Below the pieces are notes generated by a model. That model was not told the DNA's origin. It searched no databases and was given only the letters and a program-made list of their open reading frames with translations. From contig JACRFB010000010.1 in NCBI GenBank assembly GCA_016218045.1, positions 72,101 through 136,100 on the forward strand: a DNA stretch of 64,000 bases, read 5' to 3'. This DNA is from Ignavibacteriota bacterium (GTDB lineage: Bacteria; Bacteroidota; Ignavibacteria; SZUA-365). The translations under genes and the position numbers were made by a program. Below are positions 2,099 to 42,307 of the stretch, piece after piece (the first letter of the stretch is position 1; every line of letters begins with the position of its first letter).

Positions 2099-4654
2099 CG
2101 CTCCCGCGTCCTGCTCCGCGGGGGGCGCGCCTTCACGTTTACTCTGCCAAACGGCCCAGCCGATGGCCAGCGCGCAGATCACGGCGGCGAGACCGCCGAT
2201 GGTGCGTAATGCCCACATGTTTTCGGGTGTCCCGCTTGCGGGAGAAATGGTGTTGAACTGAAGGACAAGACCGAGTGTCAACAGACTCACCATGTTCATC
2301 ACTTTGATCAACGGATTGATCGCCGGACCCGCCGTGTCTTTTAGCGGATCACCGACTGTGTCGCCTGTCACGGCGGCTTTGTGCGCCTCAGAGCCCTTGC
2401 CTCCGTACACACCGTCCTCGATCATTTTTTTTGCGTTGTCCCATGCGCCGCCCGCGTTCGACATGAACACCGCGAGCAACTGTCCGACGAGAATCATACC
2501 CGCAAGGAAACCGCCGAGCGCGTACGGACCGAGAAGAAAACCGACGAACAATGGTGACGCGATCGCGAGGAATCCCGGACCGATCAGTTCCTTCTGCGCC
2601 GTGTTTGTGCAGATGTCGACTACGCGGCCGTAGTCCGGTTTTTTGGTTCCGGCCCAGATTTCGTTGTCCTGGAACTGTGCGCGGCATTCGCGCACGATCC
2701 ACGATGCCGCGCGTCCGACGGCGCGTATCAGCATGCTGCTGAAAAGGAACGGCACAGCTCCGCCGAGCAGGAAGCCGATGAACACCATCGGGTCCGCCAC
2801 CGTCAGCTTGCCCGCAATAGCGAGGTATTGCGCCACGGTCATGAGCCGGATGTTGTCTTCGCTTCCCACGGCAATCACGGCGATGAAGCTCGCGAACAGC
2901 GAGACTGCGGCGATCACCGCCGATCCGATCGCGATGCCCTTTGTCTCGGCCTTGGTGGTGTTGCCCACGGCGTCGAGGTCCGCCAGAATCTGCCGCGCGC
3001 GCTTGTAGCTGCCCGGCTCCTTTTCCTCCATGGCTTCCGGTTCGTAGCCCATCTCGCCGATGCCGTTGGCGTTGTCGGCGACAGGGCCGAACACGTCCAT
3101 CGAGATGGTGTTGCCCGTGAGCGTCAACATGCCGATGCCCGTCATGGCGATGCCGTACGCGATAAAGAGCGGCGGCGCGCCCGCGTAGAGCAGGGCCGAC
3201 AGCAGTATCGATATCGCGATGACAACGATCGTTGCCACGGTGCTTTCGTACCCGACGGCGAATCCCTGTATGATGTTGGTCGCATGCCCCGTCGTGCAGG
3301 CCTTGGCCATACTCTTCACGGGATCATGCCCGGTGTGTGTGAAATAGCTCGTGACCTTGTTGAGACAGATCGCGAGGAACACGCCCACGAGGCAGGTCAG
3401 CGCCGGCCGCATGTCGAGTCCGGGCACGCCGAAGTTGGCCCAGGCGGGAAGGCCCGAGGGAAGTCCGCCGGGGAATCCCGCAGCGGCCATCGGATTGGCG
3501 AGGAAATATGCGGCATCGAAGCGCAGATAGAACGCGCCGAGGATGAAGAATCCCACCACGCTCAATATGCTGCCGATCCAGAAGCCGCGGTGCACGCTGC
3601 GCAGCGCGGTGTCGGAGGTGTCCTTCGATCCGGCGCGCACGGTATAGGTGCTGATGATGGATCCGAGCACGCCGATGCCGCGGACGAGCAGCGGGAATAT
3701 CACACCCTTGTGTCCGAAACTCGCCATGCCGAGAATCATCGCCGCGACGATTGTCACCTCGTAGCTCTCGAAGATGTCGGCGGCCATGCCCGCACAGTCT
3801 CCCACGTTGTCGCCCACATTGTCGGCGATGGTCGCCGCGTTGCGCGGATCGTCCTCGGGGATATCCTGTTCGATCTTGCCCACAAGATCGGCGCCCACGT
3901 CGGCCGCCTTCGTGTAGATGCCGCCGCCGACGCGCATGAAGAGAGCCAGCAGCGTTCCGCCGAAGCCAAAGCCGAGCAGCGCTTCGTAGGCCTGTTCGCC
4001 GAAGGTGAGAAAGATCACGGTGCCGCCCAGCAGGCCGAGTCCGTCGGTGAGCATGCCGGTGACGGTGCCGGTCCGGTACCCGAGCTGCATGGCCTCGCCA
4101 TAGCTGCGTGTTGCCGCACTGGCAACGCGGAGGTTGCCGGTGGTCGCCAGGCGCATGCCGACAAAGCCGACGGTCCAACTGAACAGCGCGCCGACAAGAA
4201 ACGCGATGGCGCGTCCCCAGCGGTACGCTTCCTCGGCGCCCGTGTACGTGACGAAGAGCAGAATGGTAATGATGCCGATCAATGGTCCGATGCGCCGGAA
4301 CTGCGCTCGGAGGTAGGCGTCGCTGCCTTCGCGCACGGCGTCGGCTACGTCGCGCATCTTGCGTGTGCCCTGATCGGCGCGTTTGACCTGTCCGACAAGC
4401 AGCCAAGCGTACAGCAGGCCCACGATCGCTATTCCCAACACCGCGAGCAGGCTGATGACTTCCATCTCGTCGTACTTCGGATCGCCGAAAAGAGCAAACG
4501 GCATAAAACTCCCGGTGCCGTGCTGCACCGCCGGAGCCGCGGTTTGCCCGCTCCCCGGCTGCCAGAGAAACGCGCCCGCAAAAACGAGCATCATGATAAA
4601 AAGATACACGCGCCGCGTCTTTCGCGACGACATCAAGGTGCGGAGTGATTTCAT
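2096..4654 (-). CDS. hppA: Membrane-bound proton-translocating pyrophosphatase
   Basis: Integral membrane pyrophosphatase of about 852 aa that couples hydrolysis of PPi to ion pumping. The substrate loop is clear: DVGADLVGKIEQDIPEDDPRN followed by DNVGDNVGD, which bind Mg-PPi. The sequence GNTTKA carries Lys at the position that separates K+-independent enzymes (Lys) from K+-dependent ones (Ala); this predicts a K+-independent H+ pump. Length is slightly above the usual 670-800 because of an N-terminal extension that includes the first helix. I start at the ATG at 4654 (MKSLRTLM); the frame is open to 4708. Cytoplasmic PPi from biosynthesis would be recovered as proton motive force. Confidence 0.95.
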   Translation of the reverse strand: MKSLRTLMSSRKTRRVYLFIMMLVFAGAFLWQPGSGQTAAPAVQHGTGSFMPFALFGDPKYDEMEVISLLAVLGIAIVGLLYAWLLVGQVKRADQGTRKMRDVADAVREGSDAYLRAQFRRIGPLIGIITILLFVTYTGAEEAYRWGRAIAFLVGALFSWTVGFVGMRLATTGNLRVASAATRSYGEAMQLGYRTGTVTGMLTDGLGLLGGTVIFLTFGEQAYEALLGFGFGGTLLALFMRVGGGIYTKAADVGADLVGKIEQDIPEDDPRNAATIADNVGDNVGDCAGMAADIFESYEVTIVAAMILGMASFGHKGVIFPLLVRGIGVLGSIISTYTVRAGSKDTSDTALRSVHRGFWIGSILSVVGFFILGAFYLRFDAAYFLANPMAAAGFPGGLPSGLPAWANFGVPGLDMRPALTCLVGVFLAICLNKVTSYFTHTGHDPVKSMAKACTTGHATNIIQGFAVGYESTVATIVVIAISILLSALLYAGAPPLFIAYGIAMTGIGMLTLTGNTISMDVFGPVADNANGIGEMGYEPEAMEEKEPGSYKRARQILADLDAVGNTTKAETKGIAIGSAVIAAVSLFASFIAVIAVGSEDNIRLMTVAQYLAIAGKLTVADPMVFIGFLLGGAVPFLFSSMLIRAVGRAASWIVRECRAQFQDNEIWAGTKKPDYGRVVDICTNTAQKELIGPGFLAIASPLFVGFLLGPYALGGFLAGMILVGQLLAVFMSNAGGAWDNAKKMIEDGVYGGKGSEAHKAAVTGDTVGDPLKDTAGPAINPLIKVMNMVSLLTLGLVLQFNTISPASGTPENMWALRTIGGLAAVICALAIGWAVWQSKREGAPPAEQDAGA

Positions 4655-4710
4655 ATGTGCTTTCGTTAAAAGTTCTTCGATGATTGTATCCGTCCTATCC
4701 CTAACCACCT

Positions 4711-4774
4711 AATCGTCCGATCGTCTAATCGTCCGATCGTCTAATCGTCTGATCGTCTAATCGTCCGATCGTCT
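4711..4774. repeat. Four 16-bp tandem repeats (eight octamers)
   Basis: Exactly four copies of AATCGTCCGATCGTCT lie at 4711-4726, 4727-4742, 4743-4758 and 4759-4774, with one C-to-T change in the third. Each unit is two related octamers, so the period is 8. The array ends on the first base of the stop codon of the next minus-strand gene and fills most of the gap before hppA. No spacers, so not CRISPR. Confidence 0.95.
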
Positions 4775-33301: not shown

Positions 33302-33952
33302 TTATTCACGCCCATGTGAAGGAACATTCTTCCTGTCCCGCATAACCATAAGTACTCCCGAGCTGCAGGAAACGGAGATGGACTGACCCGTCGCCTGGTT
33401 GCAGGTGCCCTCGTTCTCACCGAAAATGAGCCGGCCGCCGGGGGGTGTGTATTTGAGTCCTTTGAATTGTATCCCCTCTGCACTCGGCAGAGGCACAATG
33501 GAAACACGCTGTCCGGCAAAGGCCGGAAAGCGACGCGCACGAGTCAGTATGTCGATGAAGTAGTCGGCATCCTCGAGGGTGATTTCGAGCGCACGGGCAT
33601 ATCTACTCAGTATCGCGAGATTCCCGAGACTGTGGTCCAGCAGGCGTCCCGTCGCACCGGTAATGGTCACATATCGCGCTCCTCGTTCCACTACCAGACG
33701 CAACGCCTTTTCCAGATCCGTGTCGTCCTGTCCCGATTCGTGCCTGATCTCGACTCCGTGTTTTGTGAAATGCGCGATGACGGTCGGATGCACGGAGTCA
33801 AAATCGCCGACGAGCACATCGGGCAGAAGCCCTGCCCTTCGTGCCGCATTGGCTCCGCCATCGGCGCAGACGACATAGCCCGCCTCCGCGGACAAAATGC
33901 GCAATCGCTCGCTCGTCGGTTGTGTGCCGTTCGCGATTATCAATGCCTTCAT
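33302..33952 (-). CDS. thiN: Thiamine pyrophosphokinase
   Basis: A 216-aa enzyme that makes thiamine diphosphate from thiamine and ATP. Motifs in order: CADGGANAA (about 27-35), LVGDFDSV (about 48-55), SGQDDTDLEKAL (about 75-86) and GATGRLLDHSLGN (about 98-110), the substrate and ATP sites of the family. ATG at 33952 with GAGAAG upstream. It follows the TPP-riboswitch-controlled TonB receptor gene by 56 bases on the same strand, so it should be repressed by the product TPP through that switch. Confidence 0.93.
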   Translation of the reverse strand: MKALIIANGTQPTSERLRILSAEAGYVVCADGGANAARRAGLLPDVLVGDFDSVHPTVIAHFTKHGVEIRHESGQDDTDLEKALRLVVERGARYVTITGATGRLLDHSLGNLAILSRYARALEITLEDADYFIDILTRARRFPAFAGQRVSIVPLPSAEGIQFKGLKYTPPGGRLIFGENEGTCNQATGQSISVSCSSGVLMVMRDRKNVPSHGRE

Positions 33953-34008
33953 ATTCTTCTCAGTTCGTAATCCGTCGCACAGTTGCCGTGACACCCCTAC
34001 CGCACCAT

Positions 34009-36456
34009 CTACCAATCGATCGCAATATCGAAAAAGACGCTGCGTTCCGCTCCTACAAAAAACTGATCCGCTTCCCCGCTCTGAGCATACAGTGCGTCAA
34101 ACAGGTTCTCGACGGACACACGCAGATCGATGCCGCGCACGCCGAGCAGCGCGGGGGTGCGGTATGCGGCGGTGAGATTGAAGACGGAGAACGGATCCAC
34201 TTTGTTTTCCTCGTTCTGAAAGTTGTCCGTGTACTGGTCGCCCACATACTTCCATCCGCAGCCCACTGTCAGGCCGCTTCCGCGCCATGTCAGCCGGACG
34301 TTTGCAATGCGCTCGGGGAAACCGGCGATGCGGTTGCCGTCCAATTCCAGAGCACGTGCGGCGCCGCTCACCGGATCACTTTCCCACACGGTATGCCGCG
34401 CCAGACGACTGCGACTCAGGAGAGCGTTTACGTCGAGATCGAGGCCCGGGAGCAATGTCGCTGTTCCGGAGAACTCCAGGCCCAGATGCAGCGTGCGTTC
34501 TGCGTTTCCGGTGATGGGTTGGCCGAATCGGTCGAGTCCGCCGCTTTTTACGATCTCGTCGCTGAAGTCCATCATGTACCCGTTTACAAGTGCGCGAACG
34601 GAGCCTTCAGAATACCGCGCGCCCAATTCCAGATTTGCGAGTTTTTCCGGCTTCACCAACGGTGCGCTGAAGTCGTAACCGCCCGCGTCCGTCCGCTCGA
34701 ACTGCGGCACGGCGCCACCGCTGGATTCCGCCGCGTCGTACAGGTTCTTGAGGCGCGGTTCCCGCTGCGTGTAGGATATGTTCCCGTAAAAATTCCACAC
34801 GGCGTCGAGATTGTAGTTGAGGCCGAGACGCGGATTAAAAAACAGATACGGCACTCCGAAATCCGTACCCACAAAGGCCTCGTCGCCGAGGCGGTACCGG
34901 TTGTACACGGCCTGGAGACTGCCCATGAGGTTCAGCCGCTCCGAGAGTCCGTACAGCTCCTGCGCATAGACCGAGACGATGGTCTTGCCGCCGCGGTACT
35001 CGTAGTACTTCCTGCCGGGATCGAGACCCGCGGGGAGCCCCTCGGCCCATTGAATGCGTCCCCAGTGCAGCGACCCGTGTGTGCGCAGTTCGAGACCCGC
35101 GGTCAGCGTTCCGCCCGCATGCCTTACGGTGAGCCGCGGCATCCAGCCCCATTGGCGGTTGTCAACGTAGGCGCGGATGATGGGATTTATCGGATTACCC
35201 GCTCCGGCATATCCGTATTTTTCGGTAAGCCGGTAGTAGGAGGTGTCCGTCCACCCCGTGCCGTCGTAATCGAAGTAGCCCTGGCCCGCGACATGGAAGA
35301 AGGTGTTGTTGAGAGTGACGTCGTCGGAGATGGTCCACTCGTGCAGCAACTCGTAATGCGGCTGCGAGAATTCCTCCACTTCCTGAGCGCGGCGCTGTTG
35401 CGACCAAGTGTAGACGCCGTTTTCCGCCGACCAGTAGTTGTAATTCTTCCTGCGCTCCTGCCTGTCCTTCACCGCAAATTTCGGAAGTCCGTAATACACA
35501 AGCCCGTCGCTGATCGGCCCGCCGTACACGTTGACACGCGTGGTCATGTTCCGGTCGTAGCGCGTCGCCGCAAAATAATAGCTGTTGGTTTTCACCCACG
35601 AGCGGTCGCGGTAGCCGTCGGTGACCGCGCGCGAGAGTCGGCCGTAGAGCGTGTACGTCTGATCGAGCAAACCCGATCCGAACGACAGGGCGTAGCGCTG
35701 TGTATTCCACGAACCCGCGCCCGCGGCCACACGCACGCCTTTGCGATCGGCAAAATCGCCCGTCACCAGATTCACCGATCCGCCGATCGCGGGCGGACCG
35801 TAAAACGCGCTGCCCGCGCCGCGCTGCACCTGAATCTGTTCCGTGCTGCCGAGCAGATCGGCAAAATCGACCCAGTACACGTTGTGATCCTCCGGATCGT
35901 TCTGCGGCACGCCGTTGATCATCACCGCAAGACGCCGCTGATCGAAGCCGCGTATGCGCAGGTAATTATACCCGATCCCGCTTCCGCCTTCGGAATAAAA
36001 TGTCGACGATGGTAGGTCGCTCAGGAGCACGGGCACATCCTGCACGAAGTACGAGTCGCGCAGATCGCTCCCGCGCAACTCGGAAAAGGTGACGGGTGAA
36101 AAACGCTCCGTGGCACGAAAGGCCGACACTTCGATTTCCGGACCTGGCATCGGCACGGGATCCAGCCGTATCGGTTGAAAGACGCCCGCCTGCGAACGCG
36201 GTATCATGATAGAGATCGACGTATAACCGACGTGTGTTACACGCAGGACGGATACGGGACCGGAAGCGGCTTCGAGTGTGAATCGTCCCGAGCGGTCGGC
36301 GGCCGTGCCCCCGGGTCCCGGGACCAGCACAATGTTGGCTCCTTCGAGTGGGAGTCCGCTGCGTGCGTCCACCACGCTTCCGGTTATTGTTTGTGAAACA
36401 AGTGGGCCCTGCGCGAACAGAAACAGTGCGAGGGCGAGTATCCATGTGTGTCTCAT
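34009..36456 (-). CDS. TonB-dependent receptor, probable thiamine uptake
   Basis: An 815-aa outer-membrane receptor: signal peptide, a carboxypeptidase-regulatory-like domain (about 22-105, GSVVDARSGLPLEGANIVLV), a plug (about 125-235, with the SGIGYNYLRIRGFDQRRLAVMINGVP stretch split across the usual plug motif), then a 22-strand barrel ending in FFDIAIDW. The start has GGAG eight bases upstream. The leader carries a TPP riboswitch and the next gene is thiamine pyrophosphokinase, so the substrate is very probably thiamine or its phosphates. No inner-membrane thiamine permease (such as PnuT) follows. Confidence 0.92.
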   Translation of the reverse strand: MRHTWILALALFLFAQGPLVSQTITGSVVDARSGLPLEGANIVLVPGPGGTAADRSGRFTLEAASGPVSVLRVTHVGYTSISIMIPRSQAGVFQPIRLDPVPMPGPEIEVSAFRATERFSPVTFSELRGSDLRDSYFVQDVPVLLSDLPSSTFYSEGGSGIGYNYLRIRGFDQRRLAVMINGVPQNDPEDHNVYWVDFADLLGSTEQIQVQRGAGSAFYGPPAIGGSVNLVTGDFADRKGVRVAAGAGSWNTQRYALSFGSGLLDQTYTLYGRLSRAVTDGYRDRSWVKTNSYYFAATRYDRNMTTRVNVYGGPISDGLVYYGLPKFAVKDRQERRKNYNYWSAENGVYTWSQQRRAQEVEEFSQPHYELLHEWTISDDVTLNNTFFHVAGQGYFDYDGTGWTDTSYYRLTEKYGYAGAGNPINPIIRAYVDNRQWGWMPRLTVRHAGGTLTAGLELRTHGSLHWGRIQWAEGLPAGLDPGRKYYEYRGGKTIVSVYAQELYGLSERLNLMGSLQAVYNRYRLGDEAFVGTDFGVPYLFFNPRLGLNYNLDAVWNFYGNISYTQREPRLKNLYDAAESSGGAVPQFERTDAGGYDFSAPLVKPEKLANLELGARYSEGSVRALVNGYMMDFSDEIVKSGGLDRFGQPITGNAERTLHLGLEFSGTATLLPGLDLDVNALLSRSRLARHTVWESDPVSGAARALELDGNRIAGFPERIANVRLTWRGSGLTVGCGWKYVGDQYTDNFQNEENKVDPFSVFNLTAAYRTPALLGVRGIDLRVSVENLFDALYAQSGEADQFFVGAERSVFFDIAIDW

Positions 36457-36518
36457 GAGCGATGCTCCAATCGAGAGGTATCAGGAAACTCGACCCTGAC
36501 GCGGAGAGGTGTGGAAAC

Positions 36519-36552
36519 GAAAAACCGCGTGCCGGGAAAAAGGCAGCGCGGT
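36519..36552 (-). terminator. Attenuator hairpin of the TPP riboswitch
   Basis: Stem ACCGCG-TGCC with GGCA-CGCGGT (one bulged base), then TTTTT on the minus strand, directly downstream of the aptamer and about 63 bases before the receptor start. It is the expected off-state platform: TPP binding would let it form and end transcription. Confidence 0.85.
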
Positions 36553-36559
36553 GTGGAGT

Positions 36560-36648
36560 TCATTCCTACGCCGGCATTATCCGGGTCAGGTTCGACGGGT
36601 GTGTTCTCAGCCGTCCCTTTTTTTGGTGCGGGACAGCACCCCGAGTGA
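36560..36648 (-). promoter_or_regulatory. TPP riboswitch aptamer (THI element)
   Basis: On the minus strand the conserved pieces appear in order: GGGGTGC, a variable stem, CTGAGA, CCCGTCGAACCTGA, then GGATAATGCCGGCGTAGGAA. These are the pyrimidine- and pyrophosphate-sensing helices of the TPP riboswitch. It precedes the TonB receptor and thiamine pyrophosphokinase genes. Confidence 0.97.
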
Positions 36649-36801
36649 CACACCAATCTACGCGTTGCCATGCACTCTGTCAAGGCCCGGAGCACATCTC
36701 ACCGCGGATGGCCACCGGTAGCGGGGGAACGGCCTTCATTCCGCACACCCGGCGGGCGTATCCCCTTGCACGTCGCGGTTCTCCGTGGGTATTTTGTAAG
36801 G

Positions 36802-38163
36802 ATGAATACTCGACACACTCTCGCCCTGATCCTCGCCATGCTGCCAGCGACACTTCTTCTGCATGCGCAGACCTACAAACCAGCTTTCGAAAAAATCACC
36901 CTGTCCAACGGTATGGATGTGGTATTCCACCGGGATACGACGCTGCCCGCCGTGTCCATCCATATCGCCTTCCGTGCCGGTTCCAGTTGGGATCCGAGCG
37001 GACTCCGCGGCATCGCCACAGTGTCAGGCAATCTGCTGCTTGCCTCGCTTCCAGCGCATGCGGCAAGCGAACTCGGGAAAATTCAGACCGAGGCGACTGC
37101 CGCATACGCGTCTTTAACCAGTGTTGATTGGACCAACATCACCCTCACGTATCCGGGCAAATATCTCGACGCGGGGCTTTGGATAGAATCTGAACGCCTG
37201 AAAGCCGCGGGCGATGCAGTCACAGAGATCATGCTGAAACAGACTGTTGAGTATATGATTGCACAGCGGCGCGAAACGGCAAAGGATCCATCGGCCGACA
37301 TGCAGGAAGCGCTCTACAGGGAAATGTATCCCGAGGGTCATCCCTACGCGCATTTGAGCACGGGCGACACAACCGAACTGCGAAAGATCACGCTCGCCGA
37401 AGTACGGAAGTTTATGAAACTCTTCCATACGGCGGGCAATGCGAGCATGACAATATCAGGCGACTTCCGAATCGATGATGCAAAAAAACTCGTGAGGAAA
37501 TATTTTGCGGGACTTCCCGCGAGCAAACGCTTCGTCTGGAAAACCGAGGCGCGAAAGTTTGATCCGGCAGGACCCGTCGCGCTGATCAAACAGGCACCCG
37601 TCGATTTTTCGACGTTGCAGATCGTCTTTCCCACCGTGCCCCTGGGCGATCCCGACGAGGCGGCCCTGCAGTTGCTCGCCAAACTGCTCGCGGGCGCGGG
37701 GGATGCGCGGCTCAAGAAATTGTTCCTCGACAACAATCCCAACGTGCTCGATGTAACGGCACGGCAGACCAGCCAGGATCTGCACGGGATGTTCGCCATC
37801 ACCATCACATGCAGGGCCGAGACGCAGTTGCGTACGGTGTTCGAGCAGGCGTTGACCCTTCTGCAAACCATCCCGCGGACTCCGGTGTCGGAGGATGAGA
37901 TGTCGATGTCGCGGTCGCTCAACGAAATGGAATTTCTTCTGCCGATGGAATCGGTGCACGGTTTTGGCGGCCGGGGTGACGCGTTGAACCTCGGCAATCT
38001 CTACACCTCAAATCCCGCGTCACAATTTACCGGCATCGAGGCGCAGGCGCGTGTCTCACCATTTGCGCTCCGCGAGGCGGCACGGCGTTACCTCTCCGGC
38101 GCGTCTGTGGTAGTGCTGAGCATCGTTCCAGCGGGACGACAGGAACTGGGCGTCACGTTGTAA
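36802..38163 (+). CDS. M16 peptidase-family protein lacking the zinc motif
   Basis: A 453-aa protein with a signal peptide (to LLLHAQ) and the two-domain M16 fold: KITLSNGMDVVFHRDTTLPAVSIHIAFRAGSSWDP, then WESERLK-like ESERLKAAG, and LASKLLAG-like LLAKLLAGAGDARLKK. The catalytic HxxEH is absent: the aligned site reads GIATVSGNLLLA. M16 members often occur as an active and an inactive subunit pair; here no active partner is adjacent. Start ATG at 36802 at the signal peptide. It is divergent from the thiamine operon. Probably a non-catalytic, exported subunit or chaperone-like protein. Confidence 0.82.
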   Translation: MNTRHTLALILAMLPATLLLHAQTYKPAFEKITLSNGMDVVFHRDTTLPAVSIHIAFRAGSSWDPSGLRGIATVSGNLLLASLPAHAASELGKIQTEATAAYASLTSVDWTNITLTYPGKYLDAGLWIESERLKAAGDAVTEIMLKQTVEYMIAQRRETAKDPSADMQEALYREMYPEGHPYAHLSTGDTTELRKITLAEVRKFMKLFHTAGNASMTISGDFRIDDAKKLVRKYFAGLPASKRFVWKTEARKFDPAGPVALIKQAPVDFSTLQIVFPTVPLGDPDEAALQLLAKLLAGAGDARLKKLFLDNNPNVLDVTARQTSQDLHGMFAITITCRAETQLRTVFEQALTLLQTIPRTPVSEDEMSMSRSLNEMEFLLPMESVHGFGGRGDALNLGNLYTSNPASQFTGIEAQARVSPFALREAARRYLSGASVVVLSIVPAGRQELGVTL

Positions 38164-39288: not shown

Positions 39289-42057
39289 TTATTTCGAAAG
39301 GATCATCTTCTTGGTCTGGACGACCGGCGCCGTGCCGTTGAGCGGCGTGGCTTCCATGCGGTACACGTAGATGCCGCTGGGCATGACTTCGCGCGCATCG
39401 TTCGTCGAATTCCAACTGACGATGTGTTTGCCTGCGCTGAGCGTGGCATTCACGAGCGTGGAGAGATGGCGGCCGAGCATGTCGTACACGCGGATCGAAA
39501 CCTGCGCATCGCTCGGAAGATTAAACGCGATGTTTGTCGTCGGATTGAACGGGTTCGGGTAGTTCTGCGCGATCTGGAATTCGGTCGGATCCGAGATGGC
39601 TTCCACAACCTGACGCGGTGCGGCTGATACGACCGGCACGAGCTTGGCAACGGAGAGGTCACCGACGCGGAGCCCTTCCACGCGGATGTCCTGCGAATTC
39701 GAGATGCTCACATTGCGGCCGCTCATGTCGAGCTGCGGCATGCGGTTGATGAGGTCGATACGCTGTTCGAACTGCGCGATCGCACCGGCGATCTTCGCAC
39801 CCACCGCCTCACGCTCGGAGATGTCTTTCGACATCACCATTGCGGCGGCGTTGTCCTTCATCGCGGCGATCTGCGGGTTGATAACGATCTCGGGACGGGT
39901 TGCCAGACGCACTGCGAGAGTGGATGCGAGAATGGACTTCTGCTCGTCGGCGGTTGCCACGGTCGAAAACACGTTCGAAAGCACGTCACCCGCGTATTCC
40001 GCGGTCGGAAGAACCATGAAGTCGTTACCTGCCTTGGCAAACGCGCGGGCGGAGGCGGCTTCGTCGGTGTTCATCGTGCCGATCCACAGCACGCGGCCTT
40101 CGGTCGGCAGCGAGGTGTTGAGTGCGCGATCGCTGAATTCGACATTGCCGAACGCAGCTTCGATGTTTGCGCGAAGCGCCTGCGCAACCGGTCCGCGGTG
40201 GCTCACCACGACGGGCGCGAAGGTCTTCACATAATTGCGGCTGTAGCTGTTGTTGATAAAGTTCTCTTCATCGGCACGCTCGATTGTCGCCTTGATCGTG
40301 TACGATCCGGAGGCGAGGCCGCTCACGGCGTCGAAGGTCACGTCCGCAATGTACGGCGCCGCGGAAAGGGTCACGCGACGCTCGCTGTAATACACCTGCT
40401 GACCGGCGCTGTTGGTGATGTACACCTTGCCGAAGGTCACGGCGTTCGGGAGCTGCGGGTGGTTCGCGAAGGAACCGAAACGCACGACCGGCGAGAACGA
40501 ACCGGGCAGGTTCGTGCCGGAGGGATTCAGGATCGCGATGACGCCGACATCGGCGCCGGTCACGAAGTTCGGACGAATCATCTTGCCACCGAACTGGCGG
40601 AGCATGTCGTTGTTCCAGGTTGTGCCACCGTTCGGCGACCAGAACTGGATGCCGTGGTTGCCGTAACGGCTGATGTTCCCATTGATGTCGAAGGGGCTGC
40701 CGAGCTGGTCCATACCCATGCCCACGCCGCCTGTTGTCGGAGCAACGTCGGTGCAGATACCGAATGCGTACCGGCCTGCCGGGAGATAGATGGGCGGGGT
40801 GAAATCGTAGGACACCCACTTCGCGCCCTGGATCGGGAGCTGGCGGTTGCCCGTGGTTGCGATCTGTGTGCCGGGCACTCCGCTCGCAGCGTCAAAGACG
40901 CGCACGGAAATACGCGCTGCGGAATTCGTCGGCTCGAGCTCGACGTTGCTTCCCTGCCAGATGTCGACGCTGGTCAGAGTCTGATCCTGCTCGATTTCAA
41001 ACACGTTGGCTTCGCAATCGTTTGCGCCGCCATTGTACGTCTGCTGCGATACGCCATTGTCGTATGCGAGCGAGCCGGGGGTCAACGTGTACTGAATCAT
41101 CTTGGAATTGTCGCCGCGCGAGGCGAAGAGATCGCCGCGCTGGAAGAGGTTCATCGACACTCTGTACGTGCCCTGCTCTGCGGGAAGGTTCGCGACATTA
41201 CCAAACGCATAGAAACCCAGAGGCATGTTCAGATTGAATTCCTTCTGAACCATCGAACCGGTCGGCGAGGTCTCGTAGAAGTTCATACGGGTTTCGCTGG
41301 CGGTCTTGCTGTTCTGAATCAGCGGCACAAACAGTGACTGACCGTTCTGCGGACGACGGCCGAGCACGGTGTACGGATACAGGCTTGTCATCGAATGCGC
41401 AGCCATGTCATCCACAAACGGAACCGGGAGGCGCGGACCGATGGCCGAACCGCAGGTGTTCCAGTAGTTGATGTCCCAACCGATGCGCACATCCTTATAC
41501 GCGCCGTAACGGTTGAAGATCAACGCCCAGCGGCGCAGGGTGCCGACGTCGCCGGACGCGCGATCGTAGACGTTGATCGTCCACAGGCCAACAGGACTGC
41601 CAGAGGTCGGGAACACTGTTCCCGGCTGCGGCTTGTACACACCGCGGAAGAACGCGGTCACATTGGAGGCGTCCGCAATTCCGACGCCGGGAATAGCCGC
41701 GCCGGCAGGCACGATGCCGCTGCAGGGCATCTGAGCCACGGCGGGATCAAAAATGGTGTTTTCGAAATTGTCGTACACACTACCGTTGTAAAGCGAGAGA
41801 ATGTAATTGCCGCCGGGGCCGCTCATCGTGATCATGAGGTCGTTGGCCGAGGTGTGATCGATGTCCACCATGACCTGCAAACTGCTGATCGTGAACACGT
41901 CGGTGATCTCAATAGTGCTCGACGTGGTGTTGTAATCCGTGATGGGCGCTTCGACATCCCTCCAGTACTCCCACGGCGGCGTTCCCTGCGAAAACGCAGG
42001 ACTGGCGCCGACGAGGACAAGCACAAAGAGTGCGAAAAACAGTCGAGCTGTTTTCAT
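39289..42057 (-). CDS. Large secreted protein with P domain and T9SS sorting signal
   Basis: A 922-aa exported protein. Signal peptide to FSQG; a proprotein-convertase-like P domain at about 25-180 (TDVFTISSLQVMVDIDHTSANDLMITMSGP through GLWTINVYDRASGDVGTLRRW, split here by a Pro/Gly insert); several beta-sandwich segments; and a C-terminal type A T9SS sorting domain (QNYPNPFNPTTNIAF, VYDMLGRHLSTLVN, MPSGIYVYRMEA, KKMILSK). The sorting domain directs outer-membrane secretion and surface attachment. Start at 42057 with AGGAGG upstream. No peptidase domain, so probably an adhesin or surface-layer-like protein. Confidence 0.9.
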   Translation of the reverse strand: MKTARLFFALFVLVLVGASPAFSQGTPPWEYWRDVEAPITDYNTTSSTIEITDVFTISSLQVMVDIDHTSANDLMITMSGPGGNYILSLYNGSVYDNFENTIFDPAVAQMPCSGIVPAGAAIPGVGIADASNVTAFFRGVYKPQPGTVFPTSGSPVGLWTINVYDRASGDVGTLRRWALIFNRYGAYKDVRIGWDINYWNTCGSAIGPRLPVPFVDDMAAHSMTSLYPYTVLGRRPQNGQSLFVPLIQNSKTASETRMNFYETSPTGSMVQKEFNLNMPLGFYAFGNVANLPAEQGTYRVSMNLFQRGDLFASRGDNSKMIQYTLTPGSLAYDNGVSQQTYNGGANDCEANVFEIEQDQTLTSVDIWQGSNVELEPTNSAARISVRVFDAASGVPGTQIATTGNRQLPIQGAKWVSYDFTPPIYLPAGRYAFGICTDVAPTTGGVGMGMDQLGSPFDINGNISRYGNHGIQFWSPNGGTTWNNDMLRQFGGKMIRPNFVTGADVGVIAILNPSGTNLPGSFSPVVRFGSFANHPQLPNAVTFGKVYITNSAGQQVYYSERRVTLSAAPYIADVTFDAVSGLASGSYTIKATIERADEENFINNSYSRNYVKTFAPVVVSHRGPVAQALRANIEAAFGNVEFSDRALNTSLPTEGRVLWIGTMNTDEAASARAFAKAGNDFMVLPTAEYAGDVLSNVFSTVATADEQKSILASTLAVRLATRPEIVINPQIAAMKDNAAAMVMSKDISEREAVGAKIAGAIAQFEQRIDLINRMPQLDMSGRNVSISNSQDIRVEGLRVGDLSVAKLVPVVSAAPRQVVEAISDPTEFQIAQNYPNPFNPTTNIAFNLPSDAQVSIRVYDMLGRHLSTLVNATLSAGKHIVSWNSTNDAREVMPSGIYVYRMEATPLNGTAPVVQTKKMILSK

Positions 42058-42307
42058 TGAAACCTCCTGACGAAAGTGAAAATTGCTATGTGGCTGATTT
42101 ATCGGACGAGAATATCGAATTGGACCTAAACTACCATTTCGCACCCGTAAAGTCAAGCCGGGGAAAATGAAAAGATCTGCCCGTAAAATGGGCATTTTCG
42201 ACATACTAAGCTCGCCTCGACATGTATCAGGGTCATGATCACCCGGCGGACGAGAACCACAGCGTGCCTGCCTTGGAATTCAGGCCGGTCTTCTCCATTT
42301 TTCAGCG
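42058..42307. other. Divergent promoter region
   Basis: 250 bases between the T9SS substrate gene (leftward) and lpxH (rightward). AT-richer than its surroundings and presumably holding both promoters. A 5-bp hairpin TGCCC/GGGCA followed by TTTT at 42178-42198 is the only structure seen. Confidence 0.4.

Follow-up and report, generated by a model that had tools for sequence, protein, structure and literature searches.

A riboswitch-controlled locus predicted to import and activate thiamine in a Bacteroidota-type bacterium, with an unlinked candidate permease

By what route could vitamin B1 reach the cytoplasm of a bacterium whose TPP-controlled genes encode an outer-membrane receptor and a kinase and no inner-membrane transporter? 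The window (the whole 64,000-nt stretch of DNA that was analysed) raises this question through a single minus-strand locus, in which a promoter-like site, a TPP aptamer, a hairpin with a T-run, a TonB-dependent receptor gene and a thiamine pyrophosphokinase gene follow one another. Our reading, to which we give a probability of about 0.83, is that the locus forms an operon, controlled by TPP, for the import and activation of thiamine in a thiamine-auxotrophic Bacteroidota-type bacterium, with an unlinked permease. On this reading, the receptor, the kinase and the unlinked transporter gene of an uncultured lineage gain a specific and testable role, and a whole order is predicted to be unable to make vitamin B1. 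The locus also bears on the substrate, thiamine or HMP, of sodium:solute symporters (SSF) under TPP riboswitches; both appear in the available texts of PMC4260697 and PMC11452348.

The operon and its conservation

The receptor gene (34009..36456, minus strand) encodes an 815-aa predicted thiamine receptor with Plug, TonB barrel and N-terminal CarbopepD_reg_2 domains, all above Pfam cut-offs. Its NCBIfam matches are to TonB families only, all below cut-offs, so that the ligand is unreadable from sequence alone. The kinase gene, thiN (33302..33952, minus strand; 216 aa), scores 153.3 bits against the equivalog model TIGR01378 (cut-off 76.4; with a query extended by 3 bases at the 5' end). By eye, the ORFs downstream of it look like groES and groEL, which leaves neither a permease nor a synthesis gene there. 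The initial annotation had described a riboswitch ahead of a TonB receptor and thiN with neither a permease nor a synthesis gene after the operon; the Rfam, Pfam and TIGR01378 matches above cut-offs and the identity of the downstream genes confirm its observation, and sequence comparison supports its interpretation as thiamine uptake.

The arrangement is conserved within the window's order. A receptor with 57-68% identity lies behind a riboswitch in all 13 relatives whose contigs are long enough, and ThiN follows the receptor in all 10 whose contigs extend that far; with the genome scan included, receptors behind this riboswitch are 57-69% identical. A genome scan with a receptor alignment covered 346 relatives, the best 80 of which were kept as loci; a simple TPP pattern is present in 60 of these 80 and ThiN in 74, while the six others end within ~400 bases of the receptor. 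Record titles among the best 80 of 346 include Ignavibacteria, Kryptonia, Calditrichota, KSB1, Bacteroidetes and similar names. In one locus (L136), receptor and kinase are separated by an additional ORF.

Several neighbouring features were recorded. A divergent M16-type peptidase gene (Peptidase_M16_C; 36802-38163, plus strand) adjoins the riboswitch, with a long match at this place in 10 of 15 order loci and one further short match at a contig end. The same divergent neighbour accompanies a second TPP riboswitch on another contig of one relative (L016/L031, G014:C360), which perhaps reflects a second strain in that assembly (G014). Farther away, the gene at 39289-42204 (minus strand) specifies a large secreted protein that carries a P-domain, FlgD_ig and a sorting domain for type IX secretion.

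Predicted auxotrophy and a displaced candidate permease

Neither ThiC, nor ThiE, nor a member of the PnuC/PnuT family (PF04973) was found in the organism's own genome, an assembly of 72 contigs that is 99% complete and in which absences could reflect gaps. Its only TPP riboswitch is that of the window. The same searches were positive in 13 (ThiC), 11 (ThiE), 5 (PnuC/PnuT) and 10 (TPP riboswitch) of 14 control genomes. ThiC is likewise missing from all 16 genomes of the window's order, as is ThiE above cut-off, with two weak matches of ~21 bits in other genomes. The organism is predicted to be a thiamine auxotroph because ThiC, ThiE and PnuT were not found and a single TPP riboswitch was, at 99% completeness. 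A genome search for thiC, thiE and PnuT had been proposed in the initial annotation, which suspected salvage with a permease elsewhere; it found none of the three, as anticipated, and a candidate permease was located at G000:C16:72467-73849. PnuT itself was considered as the missing permease and rejected for this genome, given the lack of a PF04973 match.

The candidate emerges from relatives. ThiN is followed there, outside the order, in most cases by the gene for an SSF of ~465 residues with ~10 hydrophobic helices, which scores below the cut-offs of NCBIfam sss and panF. An SSF-type ORF with a WYGG motif lies downstream in 57 of the 80 loci (best 80 of 346) and is absent from the 11 closest loci among them (L059-L069), with 10 of these identical to order genomes. 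A search with a 25-row alignment, built from 25 of 51 symporter ORFs, recovered a single strong orthologue (412-620 bits) in all 16 order genomes, split across two contigs in G011. The organism's own copy scores 573 bits, against 75 bits for the next-best SSF of the genome; it belongs to PF00474, the family of ThiV. It is on a different contig from the operon, and the two are ~182 kb apart in the single-contig genome G010. Class I fumarase (PF05681, PF05683) follows the symporter in 14 of 16 order genomes; the G003 contig stops too early, and the stretches covered for G011 contain no fumarase. Around 15 relocated SSF loci, Rfam searches up to E of 5, which may miss degenerate riboswitches, found neither a TPP riboswitch nor a credible RNA family. 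Only 36 nt separate a hairpin from the symporter start in the organism's own genome, which is too short for an aptamer right there. A comparison of the receptor leader (GGGTCGAG) with the symporter leaders found no element common to both.

Across 119 genomes drawn from the window's class, ThiC, SSF and PnuT show an almost perfect pattern of mutual replacement, which supports the relocated SSF as candidate inner-membrane thiamine permease. TPP riboswitches occur in 115 of these genomes, ThiC in 21, SSF in 88 and PF04973 in five, none of the last within the window's order and all of them without ThiC and SSF. Thus, 20 genomes have ThiC only, 87 SSF only, five the PnuT family only, one both ThiC and SSF (G073), and six none of the three. 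Fisher's test gives p 6e-14 for this pattern, a value that overstates independence and is not a true probability because the counts follow families. In all 21 genomes with ThiC, the gene has a TPP riboswitch ahead of it. For the symporter this holds in 46 of 88 genomes, at a distance of 3.0-4.3 kb, which leaves room for receptor and kinase; 42 copies have no such link, some of them near contig ends. In the window's order, the TPP riboswitch upstream of ThiV has no recognisable counterpart. SSF scores are low (329-425 bits) in family f16. In two f19 genomes, a PF04973 (PnuT) protein occupies the third slot of the operon. ThiN and the SSF form a pair at a separate site in families f7 and f13, where the receptor alone retains the riboswitch (L202, L203, L206, L207; two SSF loci per family). 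Judged by gene order, the third-slot PnuT and the ThiN-SSF pairs are separate ties between symporter and thiamine. If it is true, this class-wide exchange would be a clean natural experiment on whether a ThiV-like symporter carries thiamine or a precursor.

The six genomes without ThiC, SSF and PnuT all belong to genus g10 of family f6. A g10 locus (L191, G028:C223) combines a riboswitch with a TenA-family protein and a second TenA-like ORF recognised by eye (3258-3908, 3999-4724), a pair that suggests salvage of thiamine breakdown products.

A tree of 24 operonic, 15 relocated and seven other SSF rows, with 10 of the 14 loci L155-L168, places operonic, kinase-paired and relocated copies together and apart from eight of the 10 other SSF rows (support 95/94). 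The remaining two 'paralog' rows (L156, L159), for which the longest frame was taken, sit within the orthologue group at the end of a very long branch; they were kept in the tree and are probably in the wrong frame. The tree does not support a single clade for the order's copies, which need two changes, with one change in 56% of bootstraps; the kinase-pair layout likewise needs two. The motif W55-Y56-G57-G58 is invariant across the 25 operonic copies and is kept in the organism's own. An operonic symporter (L074) was modelled with pLDDT 90.9, and its best solved match is the human choline transporter CHT1 (Foldseek E 1.4e-14; Z 37.3, 3.2 A over 453 residues), followed by other SSF proteins; the SSF fold of ThiV is thus found in this operonic homologue, in a comparison that reports fold and not substrate. 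W55 aligns with the tryptophan of the CHT1 motif TWVGG, which we take to contact choline. Thiamine, like choline, is a cation, so the modelled resemblance fits a thiamine substrate and proves nothing.

The alternative that survives best is that the relocated SSF has another substrate in the window's order and that an unrecognised transporter imports thiamine. SSF members transport many substrates, and this copy sits apart from the operon, beside fumarase and without a riboswitch; yet each of the 16 order genomes, all ThiC-negative and without PnuT, retains one strong copy of it, it groups with operonic copies on the tree and it preserves their invariant motif, which leaves this alternative unlikely. 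Thiamine transport by the relocated symporter remains our preferred reading. With ThiE also missing, the symporter should carry thiamine rather than the pyrimidine precursor, and its presence without ThiC and ThiE argues for thiamine as the substrate in this order. With somewhat less assurance, we favour the view that the order's SSF is a thiamine symporter that escaped from TPP control and resettled beside fumarase, leaving TPP feedback to act on the outer-membrane step and on phosphorylation alone.

The leader RNA

The aptamer is the sole Rfam match in the window (RF00059; 36548..36653, minus strand). It scores 58.6 bits, above the gathering score of 54.3 (E 6.5e-9), and its match is full length (1-105), which places its conserved core and structure in the family; the interval first annotated as aptamer, 36560-36648, is contained within this match. 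Of the 16 order genomes, 15 contain a match to RF00059. A terminator-like hairpin (36519..36552, minus strand) follows, with a G+C-rich stem and then UUUUU, at the position initially described as an attenuator. RNA of 36556-36514 (minus strand) folds at -16.9 kcal/mol, and none of 200 shuffles was equally stable (z -3.8).

Leaders were compared for the window and 13 relatives; the riboswitch loci L025 and L031, which end at contig edges, were left out. In 10 of the 13 relatives (11 of 14 leaders including the window), a hairpin and T-run recur at constant distance from the aptamer with different stem sequences, which provides the downstream expression platform of a riboswitch. Three relatives, all of family f3, have the aptamer without a terminator.

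It is also conceivable that the riboswitch acts on translation or no longer functions and that the hairpin is incidental. A simple terminator scan did not report the hairpin at 36519-36552 and listed one site on that stretch against a shuffle mean of 4.6, leader folds at different lengths gave no convincing antiterminator, and the f3 leaders have no terminator. Against this stand the z of -3.8 and the recurrence at fixed distance with differing stems in 11 of 14 leaders, so that such a switch appears quite improbable and transcription termination is the preferred reading. Pairing of the P1 3' strand with UUUCC behind the terminator, seen by eye in several relatives, was considered as an antiterminator and is not claimed because UUUCC is transcribed after the termination decision.

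Two further elements flank these structures. A promoter-like site, TTGACA-17-TAGATT (36655..36683, minus strand; 10 of 12 consensus positions), abuts the aptamer; its support is weak because a similar site, in roughly the same register, occurs in only some of 15 relatives. Between the terminator and the receptor start codon, the leader comparison reveals a conserved block, CAGGGTCGAGTTTC (36485..36498, minus strand), of which AGG[G/A]T[C/T]GAG is found by eye in 14 of 14 leaders, including those without terminators. The block has no other copy anywhere in the window, and no pairing with the aptamer or terminator was found by eye.

Predicted mechanism and known systems

The proposed pathway would operate with parts that are present in the DNA (aptamer, terminator-like platform, TonB receptor and kinase) in a genome without detectable ThiC, ThiE or PnuT. 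When TPP is plentiful, the aptamer would be bound and transcription would stop at the hairpin; when TPP is scarce, receptor and kinase would be produced. The receptor would then bring thiamine into the periplasm via TonB, the Na+-coupled SSF symporter (G000:C16:72467-73849) would move it across the inner membrane, and ThiN would convert the imported thiamine to TPP. The symporter gene is apart and has no recognisable TPP riboswitch, and TPP therefore appears to control the outer-membrane and kinase steps only. A receptor ligand other than thiamine, for instance a phosphate of thiamine or one of its precursors (HMP, thiazole), is very unlikely: a ThiV-type SSF is implicated in HMP uptake in SAR11 in the available text of PMC11452348, and specificity of TonB-dependent receptors is unreadable from sequence, with the nearest solved ones distant, but without ThiE, which was not found, the cell could make no use of HMP or thiazole alone, the substrate of the partner enzyme ThiN is thiamine (TIGR01378), and import of ready-made TPP would give no reason for a ThiN gene in the operon.

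With thiamine as the preferred ligand, the operon core is of a known kind, in that a receptor-kinase-SSF locus under a TPP riboswitch has already been published. The Caldithrix abyssi locus combines a TPP riboswitch, a TonB receptor, an SSF and thiamin pyrophosphokinase, with predicted thiamine transport (PMC5317091, available text). The window shares its riboswitch, receptor and kinase, and auxotrophy was inferred there too. In contrast to C. abyssi, as described in that text, the window's order has its SSF away from the locus and without a recognisable TPP riboswitch: an orthologue is present elsewhere in the genome, and none occurs at the locus in the window or, where contigs are long enough to tell, in its order relatives. 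Neither the displaced symporter of this order nor the three-way replacement of ThiC, SSF and PnuT was found in the open-access literature; the likely additions made here are the probable identity of the permease, its displacement and the resulting support for a thiamine substrate.

Gut Bacteroidetes use OMthi, PnuT and Tnr3 (OMthi - pnuT - tnr3), with known deletion phenotypes (PMC5613172, here and below from its available text). The window has the same TPP-linked TonB receptor and thiamine kinase, but PnuT is missing and an SSF apparently takes its role. Unlike the window's organism, B. thetaiotaomicron also synthesises thiamine (PMC5613172). Its OMthi and pnuT transcripts, beside TPP riboswitches, respond little to thiamine (PMC5613172), which by analogy would count against the TPP-control model.

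ThiV/SSSP symporters are tied to TPP riboswitches, with SAR11 ThiV implicated in HMP uptake (PMC11452348) and thiamine or HMP proposed elsewhere, algae included (PMC4260697); thiV and omr have been described behind TPP riboswitches (PMC2211319). As far as the available parts of PMC11452348 and PMC4260697 allow comparison, the likeness to ThiV/SSSP consists of the SSF family and of TPP control in relatives of the window genome. It is a likeness at family level, and unlike for SAR11 ThiV (PMC11452348), thiamine would be the expected substrate here, where ThiE is missing.
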